Shown here piece after piece: positions 6,423 through 56,410 of a stretch of DNA of 64,000 bases (positions within the stretch are counted from its first letter, which is position 1; every line of letters begins with the position of its first letter). The position numbers were made by a program, and so were the translations under genes. The stretch covers positions 2,790,001-2,854,000 of the forward strand of contig NZ_CP036525.1 of the NCBI RefSeq assembly GCF_007741535.1, in the 5' to 3' direction. A model generated the notes under the pieces. That model did not search any database, had not been told where the DNA came from, and was given only the letters and a program-made list of their open reading frames with translations. This stretch comes from Rubripirellula lacrimiformis (GTDB lineage: Bacteria > Planctomycetota > Planctomycetia > Pirellulales > Pirellulaceae).

Positions 6423-6812
6423 CAGCGGAAGCCTTTGGGATTCGTTTCAGAATCACACTAATCGTATTGAGAATCAGTCGCAACAGACCGTGTTTTAGTC
6501 GCTGACCTTATTTGTCGCAACGATCCTAGCGACAATTCCGGGTACAGAAAGTCAAGGTTTTTGCCGAACGGGTCTTTCGGATAGTTCTGGCGAGGGGGGG
6601 GGGGGCGTGCGCGGCGGCTCGATCGCCAGTGCAGCGTGCCAGCGTGCAGCGTGCAGCGTGCAGCGTGCAGAGTGCAGAGTGCAGAGTGCAGAGTGCAGAG
6701 TGCAGAGTGCAGAGTGCAGAGTGCAGAGTGCAGAGTGCAGAGTGTCAGGCGACGTTTTAGGCGATCGATCCGGATCCGAATCCAGCTGCGCCGATCAGGC
6801 CGCCACGGGCCC
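6423..6812. other. Intergenic region with short tandem repeats
   Basis: A 390-base gap between the divergent start of the DUF1559 gene and the end of the Nudix gene. It holds a G-run near 6594-6606 and the 7-bp tandem array described separately. Open frames across it are low-complexity products of the array and are not believed to be genes. Confidence 0.6.
6646..6743. repeat. 7-bp tandem repeat, about 14 units
   Basis: Three units of GCAGCGT (6646-6666) are followed by eleven perfect units of GCAGAGT (6667-6743). The change of one base between the two blocks and the perfect periodicity inside each indicate slippage expansion. It lies between genes and does not sit at an obvious promoter spacing for either neighbour. 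Confidence 0.95.
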
Positions 6813-18566: not shown

Positions 18567-19751
18567 ATGTACGGCGATTTTCAAAACCATCTGAAAGACC
18601 AGATTCAACAAATTCGCGATAGCGGTCTGTACAAGTCCGAGCGAACGATCACGTCGGCCCAAGACGTGCGAATCCGCGTGGGCGACGACCGGTCGGTGTT
18701 GAATCTATGCGCAAACAACTATCTGGGGCTGTCGGATCAACCGGCCGTCCGTGAAGCGGCTCATCAGGGGTTGGACCAATGGGGATATGGTCTGTCGTCG
18801 GTGCGGTTCATTTGCGGAACGCAGACGATTCATAAGGACCTGGAAGATCGGTTGAGCACTTTTCTGGGGATGGAAGACACGATTTTGTATACATCGTGTT
18901 TCGATGCCAACGGTGGTTTGTTCGAGACGATGTTGACCGCCGAAGACGCGGTCATATCGGACGAACTGAACCATGCGTCGATCATTGACGGCATCCGGTT
19001 GTGCAAGGCCCAGCGGTATCGATATCGCAACAACGACTTGGCCGACTTGGAAGCTCGATTGCAGGAATCCCAATCGGCGCGGTTCCGCATGATCGCCACC
19101 GACGGCGTGTTTTCGATGGATGGCACGATCGCCAACCTGCCGGGAATCTGCGATTTGGCGGACCGATACAACGCGATCGTGATGGTCGATGATTCTCACT
19201 CAGTCGGTTTCATGGGACGCCGTGGACGCGGGACTCACGAACATCACGACGTGATGGACCGAATCGATATCATCACCGGGACACTCGGCAAAGCGCTTGG
19301 CGGAGCCAGCGGCGGATACACCAGCGGGCGACGTGAAGTCGTCGATCTGCTGCGACAACGGTCGCGCCCCTATCTGTTTTCCAATTCGGTTGCGCCGCCG
19401 ATTGTTGCCGGATCGATTGCTGCGATCGATTTGCTAAACGAATCCACCGAGCTCCGCGATCGGCTGGAATCCAACACGCGGTTCTTCCGAGCTGGGTTGG
19501 AAAAAGCCGGCTTTGACTTGGTGCCTGGCGAACATCCCATCGTGCCCATCATGTTGGGCGACGCGGTGATCGCGACTCAGATGGCTGACATGATGCTGGA
19601 AAAAGGCGTCTACGTCATCGGTTTCTCGTTCCCCGTGGTGCCCAAGGGCAAGGCACGAATTCGAACGCAAGTTTCAGCCGCGCATTCGCAAGAAGATTTG
19701 GCGATGGCGATCGAAAAGTTCACCGAAGCGAAGCATGAACTCGGGCTTTAA
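18567..19751 (+). CDS. kbl: Glycine C-acetyltransferase (2-amino-3-ketobutyrate CoA ligase)
   Basis: This 394-residue PLP enzyme cleaves 2-amino-3-ketobutyrate with CoA to glycine and acetyl-CoA. It is an alpha-oxoamine synthase: CANNYLGLS near the N-terminus, [34 protein letters not shown], and the PLP-lysine region [15 protein letters not shown]. Length matches E. coli Kbl (398). It is 21 bases downstream of tdh, so the pair is almost certainly cotranscribed. Its downstream end abuts the large repeat array. Confidence 0.96.
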
Positions 19752-19832: not shown

Positions 19833-21890
19833 TTTTCGTAGCGGAGCTCGCCAAGAGTTCGTCGATTGAGTGAGCCGTGATCGCGTGAGCGGCCGGGAAT
19901 CCCCCTGCAAAAAATTCCCGTGGCCTCACGGCCAGCGGCTCACCGTTGCCGTAGAGCGTTCAACTACATCGACGAGCCGCCACGATTTTCGGTCGATGAG
20001 TGTGAAGTCACCGAAAGTCTTGAGGGTTCGTCGATTGAGTGAGCCGTGATCGGGTGAGCGGCCGGGAATCCCCCCCCGCAAAAAATTCCCGTGGCCTCAC
20101 GGCCAGCGGCTCACCATTGCCGTTGAGAGTTCGACAACATTAACGAGCCGGCACGAGTTTCGGTCGGTGAGTGTGAGTCACCGAAAGTCTTGGGGGTTTG
20201 TCGATTGAGTGAGCCGTGGTCGCGTGAGCGGCCGGGAATCCCCCCCGCAAAAAATTCCCGTGGCCTCACGGCCAGCGGCTCACCATTGCTGTTGAGAGTT
20301 CGACAACATTAACGAGCCGGCACGAGTTTCGGTCGGTGAGTGTGAAGTCACCGAAAGTCTTGGGGGTTCGTCGATTGAGTGAGCCGTGATCGCATGAGCG
20401 GCCGGGAATCCCCCCCGCAAAAAATTCCCGTGGCCTCACGGCCAGCGGCTCACAATTGCTGTTGAGAGTTCGACAACATTAACGAGCCGGCACGAGTTTC
20501 GGTCGATGAGTGTGAAATCACCGAAAGTCTTGGGGGTTCGTCGATTGAGTGAGCCGTGATCGCGTGAGCGGCCGGGCATCCCTCCCCCGCAAAAAATTCC
20601 CGTGGCCTCACGGCCAGCGGCTCACCATTGCTGTTGAGAGTTCGACAACATTAACGAGCCGGCACGAGTTTCGGTCGGTGAGTGTGAAATCACCGAAAGT
20701 CTTGGTGGTTCGTCGATTGAGTGAGCCGTGATCGCGTGAGCGGCCGGGAATCCCCCCCTGCAAAAAATTCCCGTGGCCTCACGGCCAGCGGCTCACCATT
20801 GCTGTTGAGAGTTCGACAACATTAACGAGCCGGCACGAGTTTCGGTCGGTGAGTGTGAAATCACCGAAAGTCTTGGTGGTTCGTCGATTGAGTGAGCCGT
20901 GATCGCGTGAGCGGCCGGGCATCCCTCCCCCGCAAAAAATTCCCGTGGCCTCACGGCCAGCGGCTCACCATTGCCGTAGAGCGTTCGACTACATCGACAA
21001 ACCGCCACGATTTTCGGTCGATGAGTGTGAAGTCACCGAAAGTCTTGGGGGTTCGTCGATTGAGTGAGCCGTGATCGCGTGAGCGGCCGGGAATCCTCCC
21101 CCGCAAAAAATTCCCGTGGCCTCACGGCCAGCGGCTCACCATTGCTGTTGAGAGTTCGACAACATTAACGAGCCGCCACGAGTTTCGGTCGGTGAGTGTG
21201 AAATCACCGAAAGTCTTGGTGGTTCGTCGATTGAGTGAGCCGTGATCGCGTGAGCGGCCGGGAATCCCCCCCTGCAAAAAATTCCCGTGGCCTCACGGCC
21301 AGCGGCTCACCGTTGCCGTAGAGCGTTCAACAACATCGACAGGCCGCCAACAGTTTCGGTCGGTGAGTGTGAAATCACCGAAAGTCTTGAGGGTTCGTCG
21401 ATTGAGTGAGCCGTGATCGCGTGAGCGGCCGGGCATCCCTCCCCCGCAAAAAATTCCCGTGGCCTCACGGCCAGCGGCTCACCATTGCCGTAGAGCGTTC
21501 GACTACATCGACGAGCCGCCACGATTTTCGGTCGGTGAGTGTGAAATCACCGAAAGTCTTGAGGGTTCGTCGATTGAGTGAGCCGTGATCGCGTGAGCGG
21601 CCGGGCATCCCTCCCCCGCAAAAAATTCCCGTGGCCTCACGGCCAGCGGCTCACCATTGCTGTTGAGAGTTCGACAACATTAACGAGCCGCCACGAGTTT
21701 CGGTCGGTGAGTGTGAAGTCACCGAAAGCCTTGGGGGTTCGTCGATTGAGTGAGCCGTGATCGGGTGAGCGGCCGGGAATCCCCCCCGCAAAAAATTCCC
21801 GTGGCCTCACGGCCAGCGGCTCACCGTTGCCGTTGAGAGTTCGACTACATCGACAAACCGTTGGCGAATTCCACTACGCGAAGTGCCTCG
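19833..21890. repeat. Palindromic element amplified into twelve ~171-bp tandem units
   Basis: Units start at about 19861, 20030, 20200, 20370, 20540, 20712, 20883, 21055, 21226, 21397, 21569 and 21741, with spacing 169-172 bases that varies mainly through a C-run. Each unit holds nested inverted repeats: GTGAGCCG pairs with CGGCTCAC, and GTGAGCGGCCGGGAAT pairs with ATTCCCGTGGCCTCAC. The array is bounded by imperfect inverted termini: CGTAGCGGAGCTCGCCAA at about 19840 and, on the opposite strand, CGTAGTGGAATTCGCCAA at about 21883. Small ORFs inside each unit (60 and 71 codons) are not kept in register between units and are not genes. It fills the gap between kbl and the hydrolase gene. Confidence 0.95.
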
Positions 21891-21913: not shown

Positions 21914-22927
21914 TCACTCGTCCTGATCTGCCAAGTCCAGGTACTTCGATAGTGCCGCGTCGAAACTGGTGAAGTGATCGCCGGGCACGATCTCGAGGTG
22001 CAAGTTCGATTCGCCAGGGGCTTCGGATTCTGCGATGGCGATCGAATCGCGTAGATTGTCTTGTTCGCCCAGGTAGGCATAGTGGTCACGCTGCATGTGC
22101 GAAATGTTCCCTAGCAGCAGTCTTGCCATGCGTTCCTCGGGCGTGTTGTTGAACGGCACATCGCTGGCCCAGCCCAGGAAAACGACTGGCGGATACAGGC
22201 CGCCGGAACTGCCGCTGTGTCGGATCGGCACTTGGTCCAACAGGCTTAGCATGGCCGACACGCCGCCGCCGACGCTGTGTCCAAACACATAGACGCGGTT
22301 CGGGGCGACGTCTGGTTGCGATGCCAACCACGTCGCAGCAGCCTTGGCATCGTCAGCTTCGCCCAGGAACATTTCGAAGTTCCCAGGGTTCCCGTTTTCG
22401 CCCCGAAGTGCCGGGGCCATCACGACGTATCCTCGATCGGAAGCTTCCTGGCACGCCAACAGGTCGCCTATTCCAAACGCAAAACCGCCATGCAGAAACA
22501 CAAGCCCTGGGCGCTTGGGGGGGCTGCCCGGTTCGGCACCCGTTGCGGTTTGCTGCGGTCGCATCACCCATGCTTTTAGCGATAGGTCACCCGATGGATA
22601 GCTGACCTGTTCGACGCCCGGTGGCAACGGTTCGTCGTCGTAGTCTTGCGGTGCCGGGCCAGGCGTCAACAACTGAGTTTGAAAACCGTCACGCCACTGC
22701 GTGTACGTCATCCCATCGGGCAGTTCGGCCGACCCCAAAGACTGCTGATAGAAGCTGTTTGCAAACCAGCCTCCGACACCACAGCAAACCAACAACATCG
22801 CGGCAATCACGCCGCCGATGATCAACCACGTTTTGCCTGAACCGATAGAACTAGCCACGATAAGTCTGCTTAGCGAAGTATGAAAAGATGAAATCAGGAA
22901 ATCATCGTACCACTGACCAAGTGGCAA
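21914..22927 (-). CDS. Membrane-anchored alpha/beta hydrolase
   Basis: A 337-residue protein with one N-terminal transmembrane segment (about residues 34-55) and an extracytoplasmic alpha/beta-hydrolase domain of the prolyl-oligopeptidase/dienelactone-hydrolase type. The oxyanion segment is VFLHGGFAFG, the nucleophile elbow is VFGHSVGGG (Ser), and a C-terminal GDHFTSF contains the likely catalytic His. The substrate cannot be told. The start is uncertain: the ATG at 22927 gives 23 residues before the membrane helix, while a GTG at 22858 would start with VASSIGSGKTW. The mfnD-like gene lies 30 bases downstream on the same strand. Confidence 0.85.
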   Translation of the reverse strand: MPLGQWYDDFLISSFHTSLSRLIVASSIGSGKTWLIIGGVIAAMLLVCCGVGGWFANSFYQQSLGSAELPDGMTYTQWRDGFQTQLLTPGPAPQDYDDEPLPPGVEQVSYPSGDLSLKAWVMRPQQTATGAEPGSPPKRPGLVFLHGGFAFGIGDLLACQEASDRGYVVMAPALRGENGNPGNFEMFLGEADDAKAAATWLASQPDVAPNRVYVFGHSVGGGVSAMLSLLDQVPIRHSGSSGGLYPPVVFLGWASDVPFNNTPEERMARLLLGNISHMQRDHYAYLGEQDNLRDSIAIAESEAPGESNLHLEIVPGDHFTSFDAALSKYLDLADQDE

Positions 22928-24264: not shown

Positions 24265-25785
24265 CTCTTTATCCTACACATCTATTTTAAGCCTTTGATT
24301 GCCAAATAGGCTTCGTGGTAGGCATGGGCTTTGAGCAGACCACGCCAGATGGTCGTCGAGCCTGGAGGTCCTTGCCCGTGTTGGTCTACGTAGCCACCTA
24401 GTTTGGCAATCACTCGACAAAAATCTTTCAGCGTCGGTGGGGTATCGCTGTGCAAAACACCGCCTTCAACGACCGTCATCACCGCTTGCCAAAACGTCGC
24501 ATCGTAGATCGCCCCGCAGCTTGCCTCCGGAGTGACACGCGAAGCGCTTTTAAGTTGCTCGACTCGGAATGCCGTGATCATCAAGGCGGCCACAGCGTTC
24601 AAATATGCGTCAATACTTTGATACTTCAGCTTCTCTATCCTCATCCCGCTCTTGAGCGTCTTGAAAAAAACCTCGATGTCCCAGCGCCTGCAGTATGCTG
24701 ATAAAACTAGCTCGATCTGAGCCAAACTGGTCACCGCGAGTGAAGTAAAGAGTACCCAGTGGATCGGCTCGCACCCCACCGGAGGATCAAGCTCAACCGC
24801 TTCGACAACTTGAAGCTCCACGCGAGCAACCTTTCCGCCGGGACGCTGCGGGCCATGCACTTGAACCGTCTTCGCACGAACCGAGATCGTTGCAGTGCGG
24901 CCGTCGCGGTTGCTTCGGCGTTTGCGGCTTTCACCGCTAATTAACGACTTTCGTGGCGAAACACTGACTTCAAATTCGTGCGAAAAAGGGACTTCGGCAA
25001 TCGCCTCGCTCAGCACCTTGGGTTGTTCAGCAGAGCCAAGATAGACTCGCCGATCCTGACATCCGCGGATAACGAAATCATAGTTTTCGGCCAGATCATT
25101 GTTCTGGATGAGCAACTCGTAGATGTCTGATTCGCTGTCCGAGACGCCGATGTAATGAGTTTGAGGGTTTGCCAGAGCGATCTGTTCGCCGCTTTGCATC
25201 AGTTCAAGCCAACGAGCGCTTTCCTTTTCTTCAAACGCCATGGTCCTGATCTCGCGATCGCGTTGAGCTTTGCCCACGTTTTGGCGAATCGAGTCACGTG
25301 TCCAGATAAGTTGGTCAACGCAACCCAAGACGAGACCATCGAGAGTGACGGCATAAAGCGGATGCAGAAAGAATCCCCGCTTTTTTACGTCCTCCAGAGG
25401 CCCGGCACCGACGACTTGACGCGAAGGTTTGGTGAGATCGCAAACGGTGGTGTCCTGTGCCAGCACGACGACATCGTACTTGGCTGACCGCTCCATCGTG
25501 GCTTGATTATGGGGCTGCAGAATTGCCATCCAGTTCACACTGGGGGTGTTGAAAAGCCGGTAAGTGGCAGTGAGGTCTGCAACTTCTCCGCACGCCGCCG
25601 GTGTCGAGGGCGCTACCTGATCGAACTGCTCAAGAATTCGCCTGAAGCGTTTACTTCGACGCTTGTCACCCAGGTCCAAAGTCCGAGTCTCTTCCTCAAT
25701 CCATCCTGGACACATCGAATCATCTCCGTCCCTTGAAGAAATGTCAGGGACGGAGTGTCTCAAGAAAGATGTGTAGGATAAAGAG
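24265..25785 (-). mobile_element. Complete IS4-family insertion sequence, 1521 bp
   Basis: The element has perfect 19-bp terminal inverted repeats (CTCTTTATCCTACACATCT at 24265-24283 and its complement at 25767-25785) and is flanked by a 10-bp direct repeat GGCGATGCCC (24255-24264 and 25786-25795), the expected target duplication. One transposase gene fills the interior and looks intact. It sits in a 49-bp tandem repeat, between the mfnD gene and the suf operon. Confidence 0.95.
24282..25715 (-). CDS. IS4-family (Tn5-like) DDE transposase
   Basis: The 477-residue transposase is nearly the same length as Tn5 transposase (476). An N-terminal Tn5-like DNA-binding region (WIEEETRTLDLGDKRRSKRF) is followed by the RNase-H fold: first Asp in VLAQDTTVCDL, second Asp in VSDSESD, and the Y-(2)-R-(3)-E-(6)-K signature as YCRRWDIEVFFKTLK, which contains the catalytic Glu. 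The C-terminal Tn5-type dimerisation region follows. No frameshift or premature stop was seen, so the element may be active. The stop codon overlaps the left inverted repeat. The ATG at 25715 is preferred; the longer open frame runs through the right terminus and out of the IS. Confidence 0.95.
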   Translation of the reverse strand: MCPGWIEEETRTLDLGDKRRSKRFRRILEQFDQVAPSTPAACGEVADLTATYRLFNTPSVNWMAILQPHNQATMERSAKYDVVVLAQDTTVCDLTKPSRQVVGAGPLEDVKKRGFFLHPLYAVTLDGLVLGCVDQLIWTRDSIRQNVGKAQRDREIRTMAFEEKESARWLELMQSGEQIALANPQTHYIGVSDSESDIYELLIQNNDLAENYDFVIRGCQDRRVYLGSAEQPKVLSEAIAEVPFSHEFEVSVSPRKSLISGESRKRRSNRDGRTATISVRAKTVQVHGPQRPGGKVARVELQVVEAVELDPPVGCEPIHWVLFTSLAVTSLAQIELVLSAYCRRWDIEVFFKTLKSGMRIEKLKYQSIDAYLNAVAALMITAFRVEQLKSASRVTPEASCGAIYDATFWQAVMTVVEGGVLHSDTPPTLKDFCRVIAKLGGYVDQHGQGPPGSTTIWRGLLKAHAYHEAYLAIKGLK

Positions 25786-25908
25786 GGCGATGCCCACGCG
25801 GTTAAACGATTGCAGTGCACCGCTGTTCGCGCGGGGCGTTGCCCACGCGGTTAAACGATTGAAGTGCGCCGCTGTTCGCGCGGGGGGATGCCCACGCGGT
25901 TAAACGAT
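25786..25908. repeat. 49-bp tandem repeat, right part
   Basis: After the 10-bp target duplication, the remainder of the interrupted unit (25796-25830) is followed by a complete unit (25831-25879) and a partial one (25880-25908). Units contain GCGGTTAAACGATT and CCGCTGTTCGC blocks. The array ends only about 7 bases from the stop of the DUF59 gene. Confidence 0.92.
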
Positions 25909-25914
25909 GCAGGC

Positions 25915-41810: not shown

Positions 41811-41886
41811 CGTTGCGTAGCGGAACTCGGCAGTGGTTTCGGCAGTGGGAATTGCCGAAAGTCTTGGCGACTTGCGCTACGCAACG
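41811..41886. repeat. Short palindromic element related to the 171-bp repeat termini
   Basis: The arms CGTTGCGTAGCGGAACTCGG (41811 on) and, on the other strand from 41886, CGTTGCGTAGCGCAAGTCGC pair over about 33 bases with some mismatches. The motif CGTAGCGgAnCTCGcCAA also forms the ends of the big array at 19.8 kb and the element at 51.9 kb. It sits between convergent genes and could also act as a terminator. Confidence 0.8.
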
Positions 41887-51912: not shown

Positions 51913-52084
51913 CGTAGGGCAACTCGCCAAGAGTTTGCCGATTTCGTGAGCCGTGATCGCGTGAGCGGCCGGGAATCCCGCGAATGCCCGCGGCCTCACA
52001 ATCAGCGGCCTCACAATCAGCGGCCTCACCGTTGCTGTTGAAAGTTCGACTAAATCGACAACCCGTTGGCATCCTTCGCTACGA
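51913..52084. repeat. Diverged single copy of the 171-bp palindromic element
   Basis: It shares TCGCCAAGAGTTTGCCGATT, GTGAGCCGTGATCGCGTGAG, GCGGCCGGGAAT and the GTTCGACTAAATCGACAACC end with the array at 19.8-21.9 kb. Imperfect inverted ends (CGTAGGGCAACTCGCCAA and, in complement, CGTAGCGAAGGATGCCAA) bound it. A short internal duplication of CAATCAGCGGCCTCA is present. It is located between the sigma-factor gene and clpS. Confidence 0.85.
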
Positions 52085-56166: not shown

Positions 56167-56366
56167 CGAAATCGAGTTTCCAGGCACCTCAGCCACCCCC
56201 TTTCGTCCAGTCCGTTAGCCGCATTTACACGTCGTCCCTCCGCTCTCCTGCCTCCCCTCTCCCCCACGAAATCGAGTTTCCAGGTCTATCAGCCACCCCC
56301 TTTAGTCCAACCCGTTAGCCGCATTTACACGTTGTCCCTCCGCTCTCCTGCCTCCCCTCTCCCCCA
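56167..56366. repeat. Two tandem copies of a 100-bp unit
   Basis: A unit beginning CGAAATCGAGTTTCCAGG (56167) is repeated at 56267 with few mismatches. Both contain TTAGCCGCATTTACACG and a pyrimidine-rich stretch CTCTCCTGCCTCCCCTCTCC. The second copy runs into the hairpin. Confidence 0.9.
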
Positions 56367-56410
56367 CGTTGGATGCGAGCTCCACTCGCATCCAACGTGG
56401 GGGAGAGGGG
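56354..56410. terminator. 26-bp perfect inverted repeat, very strong hairpin
   Basis: The arms 56354-56379 and 56385-56410 are perfectly complementary around a 5-base loop; the stem starts CCCCTCTCCCCCACG. No T-run follows, so it is not a standard terminator, but such a stem would strongly affect transcription or translation. It may also be a mobile palindromic repeat. The terminator label is tentative. Confidence 0.5.

Follow-up and report, generated by a model that had tools for sequence, protein, structure and literature searches.

What is the tandem array of palindromes at 19,838-21,877 composed of, and how could it have been built? The array belongs to a 64,000-nucleotide stretch of DNA (the window) that corresponds to positions 2790001-2854000 of the single-contig 8.54-Mb genome of Rubripirellula lacrimiformis. 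The initial annotation regarded it as one palindromic element whose core had been duplicated in tandem into twelve mosaic units, an interpretation that our analysis partly supports. The array consists of twelve palindromic cores of ~122 bp, belonging to a repeat family that we call A, and eleven junctions of ~48 bp. The features considered below are as follows.

18567..19751, + strand: neighbouring gene, class I/II aminotransferase (PF00155)
19838..19856, + strand: left outer GTAG-REP 5' arm (sequence; arm scan, genome position 2809838)
19857..21858, + strand: array of 12 A cores and 11 junctions of 47-48 bp (TRF; R1)
19857..19977, + strand: A core 1 (R1)
19978..20025, + strand: junction 1, TTTCGGT..ACCGAAAGTCTTG (sequence; no arm inside the array by arm scan)
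20026..20148, + strand: A core 2 (R1)
20196..20317, + strand: A core 3 (R1)
20366..20487, + strand: A core 4 (R1)
20536..20659, + strand: A core 5 (R1)
20708..20830, + strand: A core 6 (R1)
20879..21002, + strand: A core 7 (R1)
21051..21173, + strand: A core 8 (R1)
21222..21344, + strand: A core 9, hybrid unit (R1; unit comparison)
21393..21516, + strand: A core 10, hybrid unit (R1; unit comparison)
21565..21688, + strand: A core 11 (R1)
21737..21858, + strand: A core 12, the last, without a junction behind it (R1)
21861..21877, - strand: right outer GTAG-REP 5' arm, inverted (sequence; arm scan, genome position 2811861)
21914..22927, - strand: neighbouring gene, alpha/beta hydrolase, convergent
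41817..41880, no strand assigned: short GTAG inverted dimer of REPIN type, without an A core (sequence; no R1 match)
51914..52082, + strand: solo composite of GTAG arm, A core (51933-52063) and inverted arm (sequence; R1; both arms; locus 2841953)

TRF reports a repeat at 19857-21850 with a period of 172, 11.7 copies, 93% matches and a score of 3392, and the twelve unit starts located by script are 169-172 bp apart. The cores measure 121-124 bp, and each except the last is followed by a junction of 47-48 bp. The covariance model R1 matches the array twelve times, always on the + strand, with 112.9-129.4 bits. Twenty of 21 extracted copies, five of them members of arrays, served to build the model, the copy at 51.9 kb being left out; among the 13 R1-matched cores in the window, only the core at 21737 belonged to the model-building set. 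With pattern controls that return nothing genome-wide, these matches establish that the array is real. The count of "twelve units", on the other hand, has to be corrected to twelve cores and eleven complete units, core 12 passing straight into the right arm. In the arm scan, the inverted GTAG...CTAC arms are found solely at the two outer ends of the array. Rfam yields no match at gathering score within the window, and an inverted-repeat finder with ungapped seeds returns no pair in the array, although folding shows stems.

The junction sequence (TTTCGGT..ACCGAAAGTCTTG in junction 1) resembles the interior of a GTAG REPIN deprived of its GTAG arms. Since the junction of each unit has this appearance, the array element is a composite: its arms and junctions are GTAG-tagged REP/REPIN sequence, and A is a different family. 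The same inverted termini had been proposed to bound a solo copy at 51.9 kb and a compact version at 41.8 kb. The former indeed carries one A core between such arms, and the match of R1 to 51933-52063 confirms its relation to the array units; the latter shares the arms but lacks an A core, and its interior resembles the array junction by eye. Because the solo copy has the A core and the 41.8-kb dimer resembles the junction, two kinds of element seem to contribute cores to the array in alternation. The proposed tandem amplification of an interior thus stands, but the picture of one element is incomplete, as the unit also holds the REPIN-like junction. Within the solo A core, TRF detects a 15-bp triplication (51990-52029), and small internal duplications or triplications are also present in the A copies at 320966, 1179169 and 5717286, which suggests slippage within the hairpin.

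The unit length had been taken to rule out coding. This argument is weak because 171 is divisible by 3; its conclusion agrees with the ORF list, in which no ORF of at least 100 aa overlaps the array. Among 22 genus genomes, 11 (our own included) have the aminotransferase gene at E 1e-100. A tblastn search detects no hydrolase in the 11 loci around it, and no empty site was read. This negative result says little, since the flanks extend no more than 1.5 kb and, in our own genome, the hydrolase is displaced beyond that range by the array. Other tandem repeats in the window comprise 16.6 copies of AGTGCAG at 6628-6744, 2.6 copies of a 49-mer at 25785-25912 and two copies of a 100-mer at 56167-56368.

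Family A elements are ~115-120 bp long and contain a strongly conserved 24-mer, GTGATCGCGTGAGCGGCCGGGAAT, with 157 genome matches at up to 3 mismatches (75 forward and 82 reverse; none for the reversed-pattern control). A search for solo and amplified copies elsewhere had been suggested, and it recovers both: locus counts, which cover 120 of the 157 copies, give 55 A loci, 13 of which are arrays of three or more cores, with spacings from ~95 to 272 bp, and one of these arrays lies upstream of the transposase gene discussed below. Not all tandem duplication in this genome follows the layout of the focal array, as some array units contain arms and other DNA, e.g. those of 269-272 bp at 6922023. 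The 96-bp array at 2176161 has an additional higher-order period of 385 bp (99% matches), and ~14 copies of CCCCCT adjoin it at 2175967-2176052 (L066).

Beyond this genome the family is sparse. The 24-mer is matched in 3 of 80 genomes, namely our own, G021, which is probably Rubripirellula obstinata (12 matches), and G032 (7, within ~1 kb). R1 matches four of ten chosen relatives when the best 150 candidates per genome are considered: G021 with 51, G032 with 3, G011 with 2 and G001 with 1. No dispersed copies were seen in G032, where every A match found sits at the transposase locus, and the exact 24-mer gives no match in a wider contig collection, from which our own genome may be left out.

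Folded as single-stranded DNA, the consensus with its arms forms one long hairpin of -48 kcal/mol, against -23.9 kcal/mol (sd 3.1) for shuffles of the consensus element (z = -7.7). The most invariant columns among 20 copies lie around GTGAGCC..GGCCGGGAAT. Dispersed copies, like those of G032, mostly carry GGCC/GGCC in the right inner stem. In the transposase-adjoining arrays of our own genome and G021 this stem is predominantly GGAC/GTCC, a paired change visible in the sequence itself. Between its two flanks, A has a longest common stretch of 3.83 on average in 48 copies versus 3.22 (sd 0.15) after re-pairing, a value not attained in 500 trials; its length and sequence vary. The comparison bears on a classical DNA-transposon MITE, which would have terminal inverted repeats and a constant target duplication. 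Some A copies have direct repeats of 5-8 bp at their ends. Insertion of IS200/IS605 elements classically proceeds without such repeats, and an end motif, as is reportedly the case for ISDra2, would be an alternative to target duplication. No lagging-strand bias is apparent, as 29 of the 55 loci follow the leading strand in a hand count with the terminus placed near 4.25 Mb, where the sampled GC skew changes sign. The A copies at 5329043, 7862616 and 8115236 adjoin sequence like AGCCGTTTGGGCGATAGCG, which is perhaps a third repeat family; a similar repeat flanks a class-3-like transposase gene in L295.

Could the array be retained for a role in transcription? Its twelve hairpins on the minus strand would face the hydrolase transcript as terminators, or the array might act as an insulator. 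The location between convergent genes fits such a role, as does the scarcity of A within ORFs of at least 150 aa (11 of 55 loci, versus 549 of 1100 random positions), but an intergenic position is expected for any tolerated repeat. The minus strand carries 12 terminator-like sites, one per unit, derived from A6 in the spacer, compared with 3.1 (sd 1.9) in shuffles; this comparison overstates the signal because one site is repeated twelve times. Moreover, the stems have only 5 pairs, and the A6/T6 run is missing from 19 other aligned A copies. Judging from these sequence features, a terminator role of the array is possible, but we consider it unlikely that transcription accounts for its maintenance.

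Our preferred reading is that A is a mobile hairpin family with a transposase of its own. The initial annotation raised the question of a RAYT in the genome. A RAYT-like enzyme is present, although it is divergent rather than a canonical GTAG RAYT: a HuH/Y1 transposase of 160 aa is encoded at 407,347-407,823 of the genome, outside the window. The PF01797 search at E 0.001 missed this gene, which gives E 0.016 when scanned alone. It was reached from G032, where a weak PF01797 match (E 3.8e-5) lies exactly between A-like cores; the G032 protein led to our own gene (52% identical) and to the G021 gene (49%), the latter two being 76% identical to each other. In all three genomes A-related hairpins are located on both sides of the gene, with spacings of ~123, 112 and 44 bp, and at Stieleria sedimenti L287 R1 also matches both sides, the upstream match being weak (E 0.0052). 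The hairpins adjoining our own transposase retain most of the 24-mer and score 23-33 bits with R1, versus 113-129 in the array; because of these low scores the dispersed copies do not descend directly from them.

The protein has the motifs NHVH and WT and a Y148-Q153 pair, and the N, H and H of the HuH motif, W127, Y148 and Q153 are invariant in eight aligned relatives. These properties recall the class 3 TnpA_Y1 proteins, a class described on the basis of a small number of proteins (Quentin et al. 2018, PMC6006769). As far as the accessible text of that paper describes it, class 3 comprises small HuH-Y1 enzymes of Planctomycetes with NHVH, W[TA] and Y....Q, flanked by several non-GTAG hairpins that are possibly numerous in the genome; the NHVH and W[TA] motifs, the Y....Q spacing and a length within ~155-178 aa are all found in our protein. 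The class 3 row also lists YV[VI][AENY]EQ and a CnGA foot of the hairpin. Unlike these, our protein has YINEAQ (YxxEAQ or YxxDAQ in relatives), and no C[ACGT]GA occurs on either strand of the A consensus. A further difference from the class 3 systems presented there is that the hairpins here form arrays and occupy the loops of another REP family.

An AlphaFold model computed from eight sequences (L199 was dropped from the alignment, its row containing a run of X) has a pLDDT of 79.6. Its 30 best Foldseek matches in the PDB belong without exception to IS200/IS605-type transposases or to the TnpA-REP structure 4er8; E is <= 0.001 for 21 of these, and the TM values are moderate (0.44-0.55). A PDB sequence search with the protein gives no match. 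As the letters of the Y motif differ, the TM values are moderate, and Pfam and NCBIfam recognise the protein weakly, we label the enzyme only "class-3-like", a predicted resemblance to class 3 TnpA_Y1 rather than a full match.

A scan of contigs found 301 relatives, of which the best 80 were kept; 78 of these 80 carry the names of planctomycete groups, and 2 are named only 'bacterium'. Among the 67 with enough flank, 59 have a 14-mer common to both flanks, versus 32 of 400 mismatched pairs, and repeats on both sides therefore look general for class-3-like genes. From its sequence context, we infer that the class-3-like enzyme is the mobiliser of family A. A canonical RAYT beside GTAG REPs was also looked for and not found: the five PF01797 places of the genome fall into four loci, of which two carry long inverted repeats and two carry different hairpin arrays, and none of the four gives an R1 match. 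A Y1 transposase with long inverted ends GGTGTCAGGACTC is located just right of the window at 2854167-2855290 (L074), in tandem with a partial copy of itself (a truncated frame of 110 aa before the 237-aa frame, 300 bp identical, 409-bp spacing), and the Y1 transposases L076 (~7486 kb) and L077 (~5222 kb) each have their own hairpin repeats, ATCCCAACCCGAAGCGTGAGCGAGGGAT and TCGTTTAACCGCGTGGGC.., respectively.

The second family is far more numerous. The GTAG REP has 663 genome matches at up to 2 mismatches (none for the reversed-pattern control) and 246 in G021, with at most 37 in each of the other 48 searched genomes. It shows the tag at the foot of the stem-loop, inverted dimers with outward tags (41817-41880 and others) and a high copy number. 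Tandem arrays of GTAG REPs with ~83-bp spacing are located at 849321-852884 (L230), and similar ones near 1.72 Mb and 2.03 Mb. Allowing up to 3 substitutions, a GTAG REP lies beside the transposase at 1 of 63 loci, 2.3 kb from the class-3-like gene and as part of a solo A, and at none of 15 class-2-profile loci (16 rows in our own genome).

The two families meet frequently. A GTAG arm is present at one end or more in 31 of the 55 A loci and at both ends in 11, whereas random positions have 33 left and 39 right arms of 1050. Among the 40 single-copy loci, 5 lie between outer arms, only 4 between halves of one REP and 1 between inner halves; an arm is recognisable on one side of another 13 and on neither side of 17. 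For these loci the comparison is with 2000 random positions within the same repeat-rich loci, 189 of which have some arm. Under strict matching, inner arms occur in seven of the 13 arrays. Of the remaining six, the focal array, 2176161 and 2633979 are bounded by an arm on either side, 7458692 by an arm on a single side, and two are armless; looser matching gives both arms in 5 of 13. No arm is present at 24 of our 55 loci, nor at any of the 18 evaluable G021 loci (24 of 51 matches were available as loci, and 6 cut by contig ends were dropped). Embedding in GTAG REPs is therefore not required. From these counts, we read A as an independent family whose members are frequently located at REP loops in this species.

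The armless loci also bear on a rival reading, in which GTAG arms and A core form one long REPIN or MITE family with long inverted ends, moved by one unknown transposase, and the array is an internal duplication. The consensus with arms does fold end to end, and the loci with both arms have the expected form. However, A occurs so often without arms, GTAG REPs are found in genomes without an A match (e.g. G027, G016 and G012, with R1 applied to the best 150 candidates each), and A-type hairpins flank our own transposase with no GTAG arms beside it. A single family thus appears quite improbable.

The exchange between units that had been suggested from a hybrid is supported, and hybrids are common: the 11 full units have 18 informative sites, including one indel, and 77 of the resulting 153 pairs display all four combinations and thus fail the four-gamete test; recurrent mutation could add to these failures. 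Units next to each other show no greater similarity than distant ones (93.9% at lag 1 and 94.6% at lag 3). An assembly artefact, wrongly expanded or collapsed, is very improbable even though repeats this long are hard for short reads, because the units differ and are mosaic, the genome is a single contig and there are 12 other arrays among the 55 loci.

Two families and a mosaic array would be accounted for if A became embedded at GTAG REP loops, with direct copies subsequently exchanging. The starting state would be a REPIN interior with an A copy on either side, both in the same orientation. Through recombination or slippage between these copies, the A-plus-junction unit may have been multiplied, up to twelvefold here, and the same exchange in the other direction would leave a solo A between two GTAG arms; a single exchange between two A copies could yield three cores, or one core flanked by the outer arms. 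Such a model predicts arrays and solos with common termini, junctions without GTAG arms and mosaic units, and shared termini, arm-free junctions and mosaic units are all present in the focal array.

We consider it probable that A elements, embedded at GTAG REP loops and mobilised by a class-3-like enzyme, gave rise to array or solo by exchange between direct copies. Direct support comes from the anatomy of the array, the two families, the association of transposase and hairpin in three genomes (weaker in a fourth), the several arrays and the mosaicism; from these we infer that the class-3-like enzyme mobilises A, that the embedding came about by insertion and that exchange proceeded as outlined. 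More tentatively, and as an idea that we regard as plausible without favouring it, class-3-like hairpins might land in the loops that GTAG REPINs expose, and the composites might become satellites that cycle between array and solo, much like the formation of solo LTRs.

REPtrons, REPINs, BIMEs and tandem REPIN clusters are already known (PMC3733652, PMC3116915), and the accessible text of PMC3733652 mentions several REP families in R. baltica, with some REP dimers inside other palindromes. Like the GTAG REP clusters described there (Di Nocera et al. 2013), our elements have the GTAG tag, inverted dimers with tags outside and tandem clusters that include flanking DNA; here, however, the order is reversed, another hairpin lying at the loop of the GTAG REP, and the GTAG transposase was not found in the loci examined. 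The REPINs of P. fluorescens SBW25 (Bertels and Rainey 2011, PMC3116915) share the inverted REP pair as a unit, the ordered tandem clusters and the adjoining RAYT, but the largest ordered cluster given in the text available is four REPINs, in contrast to up to 12 cores from two families here. Tandem arrays have likewise been catalogued as satellites of prokaryotes, R. baltica having 29 (Subirana and Messeguer 2019, PMC6749651), although the available text of that survey gives no planctomycete repeat family or mechanism. The locus is thus ordinary in kind (REPtron, BIME) and unusual in its scale and in the nesting of two families; as far as the open-access literature searched is concerned, both the embedding of a class-3-like hairpin family at GTAG REPs and the existence of such large composite arrays are new.

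These results link a little-studied transposase class to an abundant planctomycete repeat through flanking hairpins in several genomes. One genome contains solo, paired and 12-fold states of a single repeat, and the coexistence of these states would make testable both the origin of a bacterial satellite and the exploitation of one selfish repeat by another.
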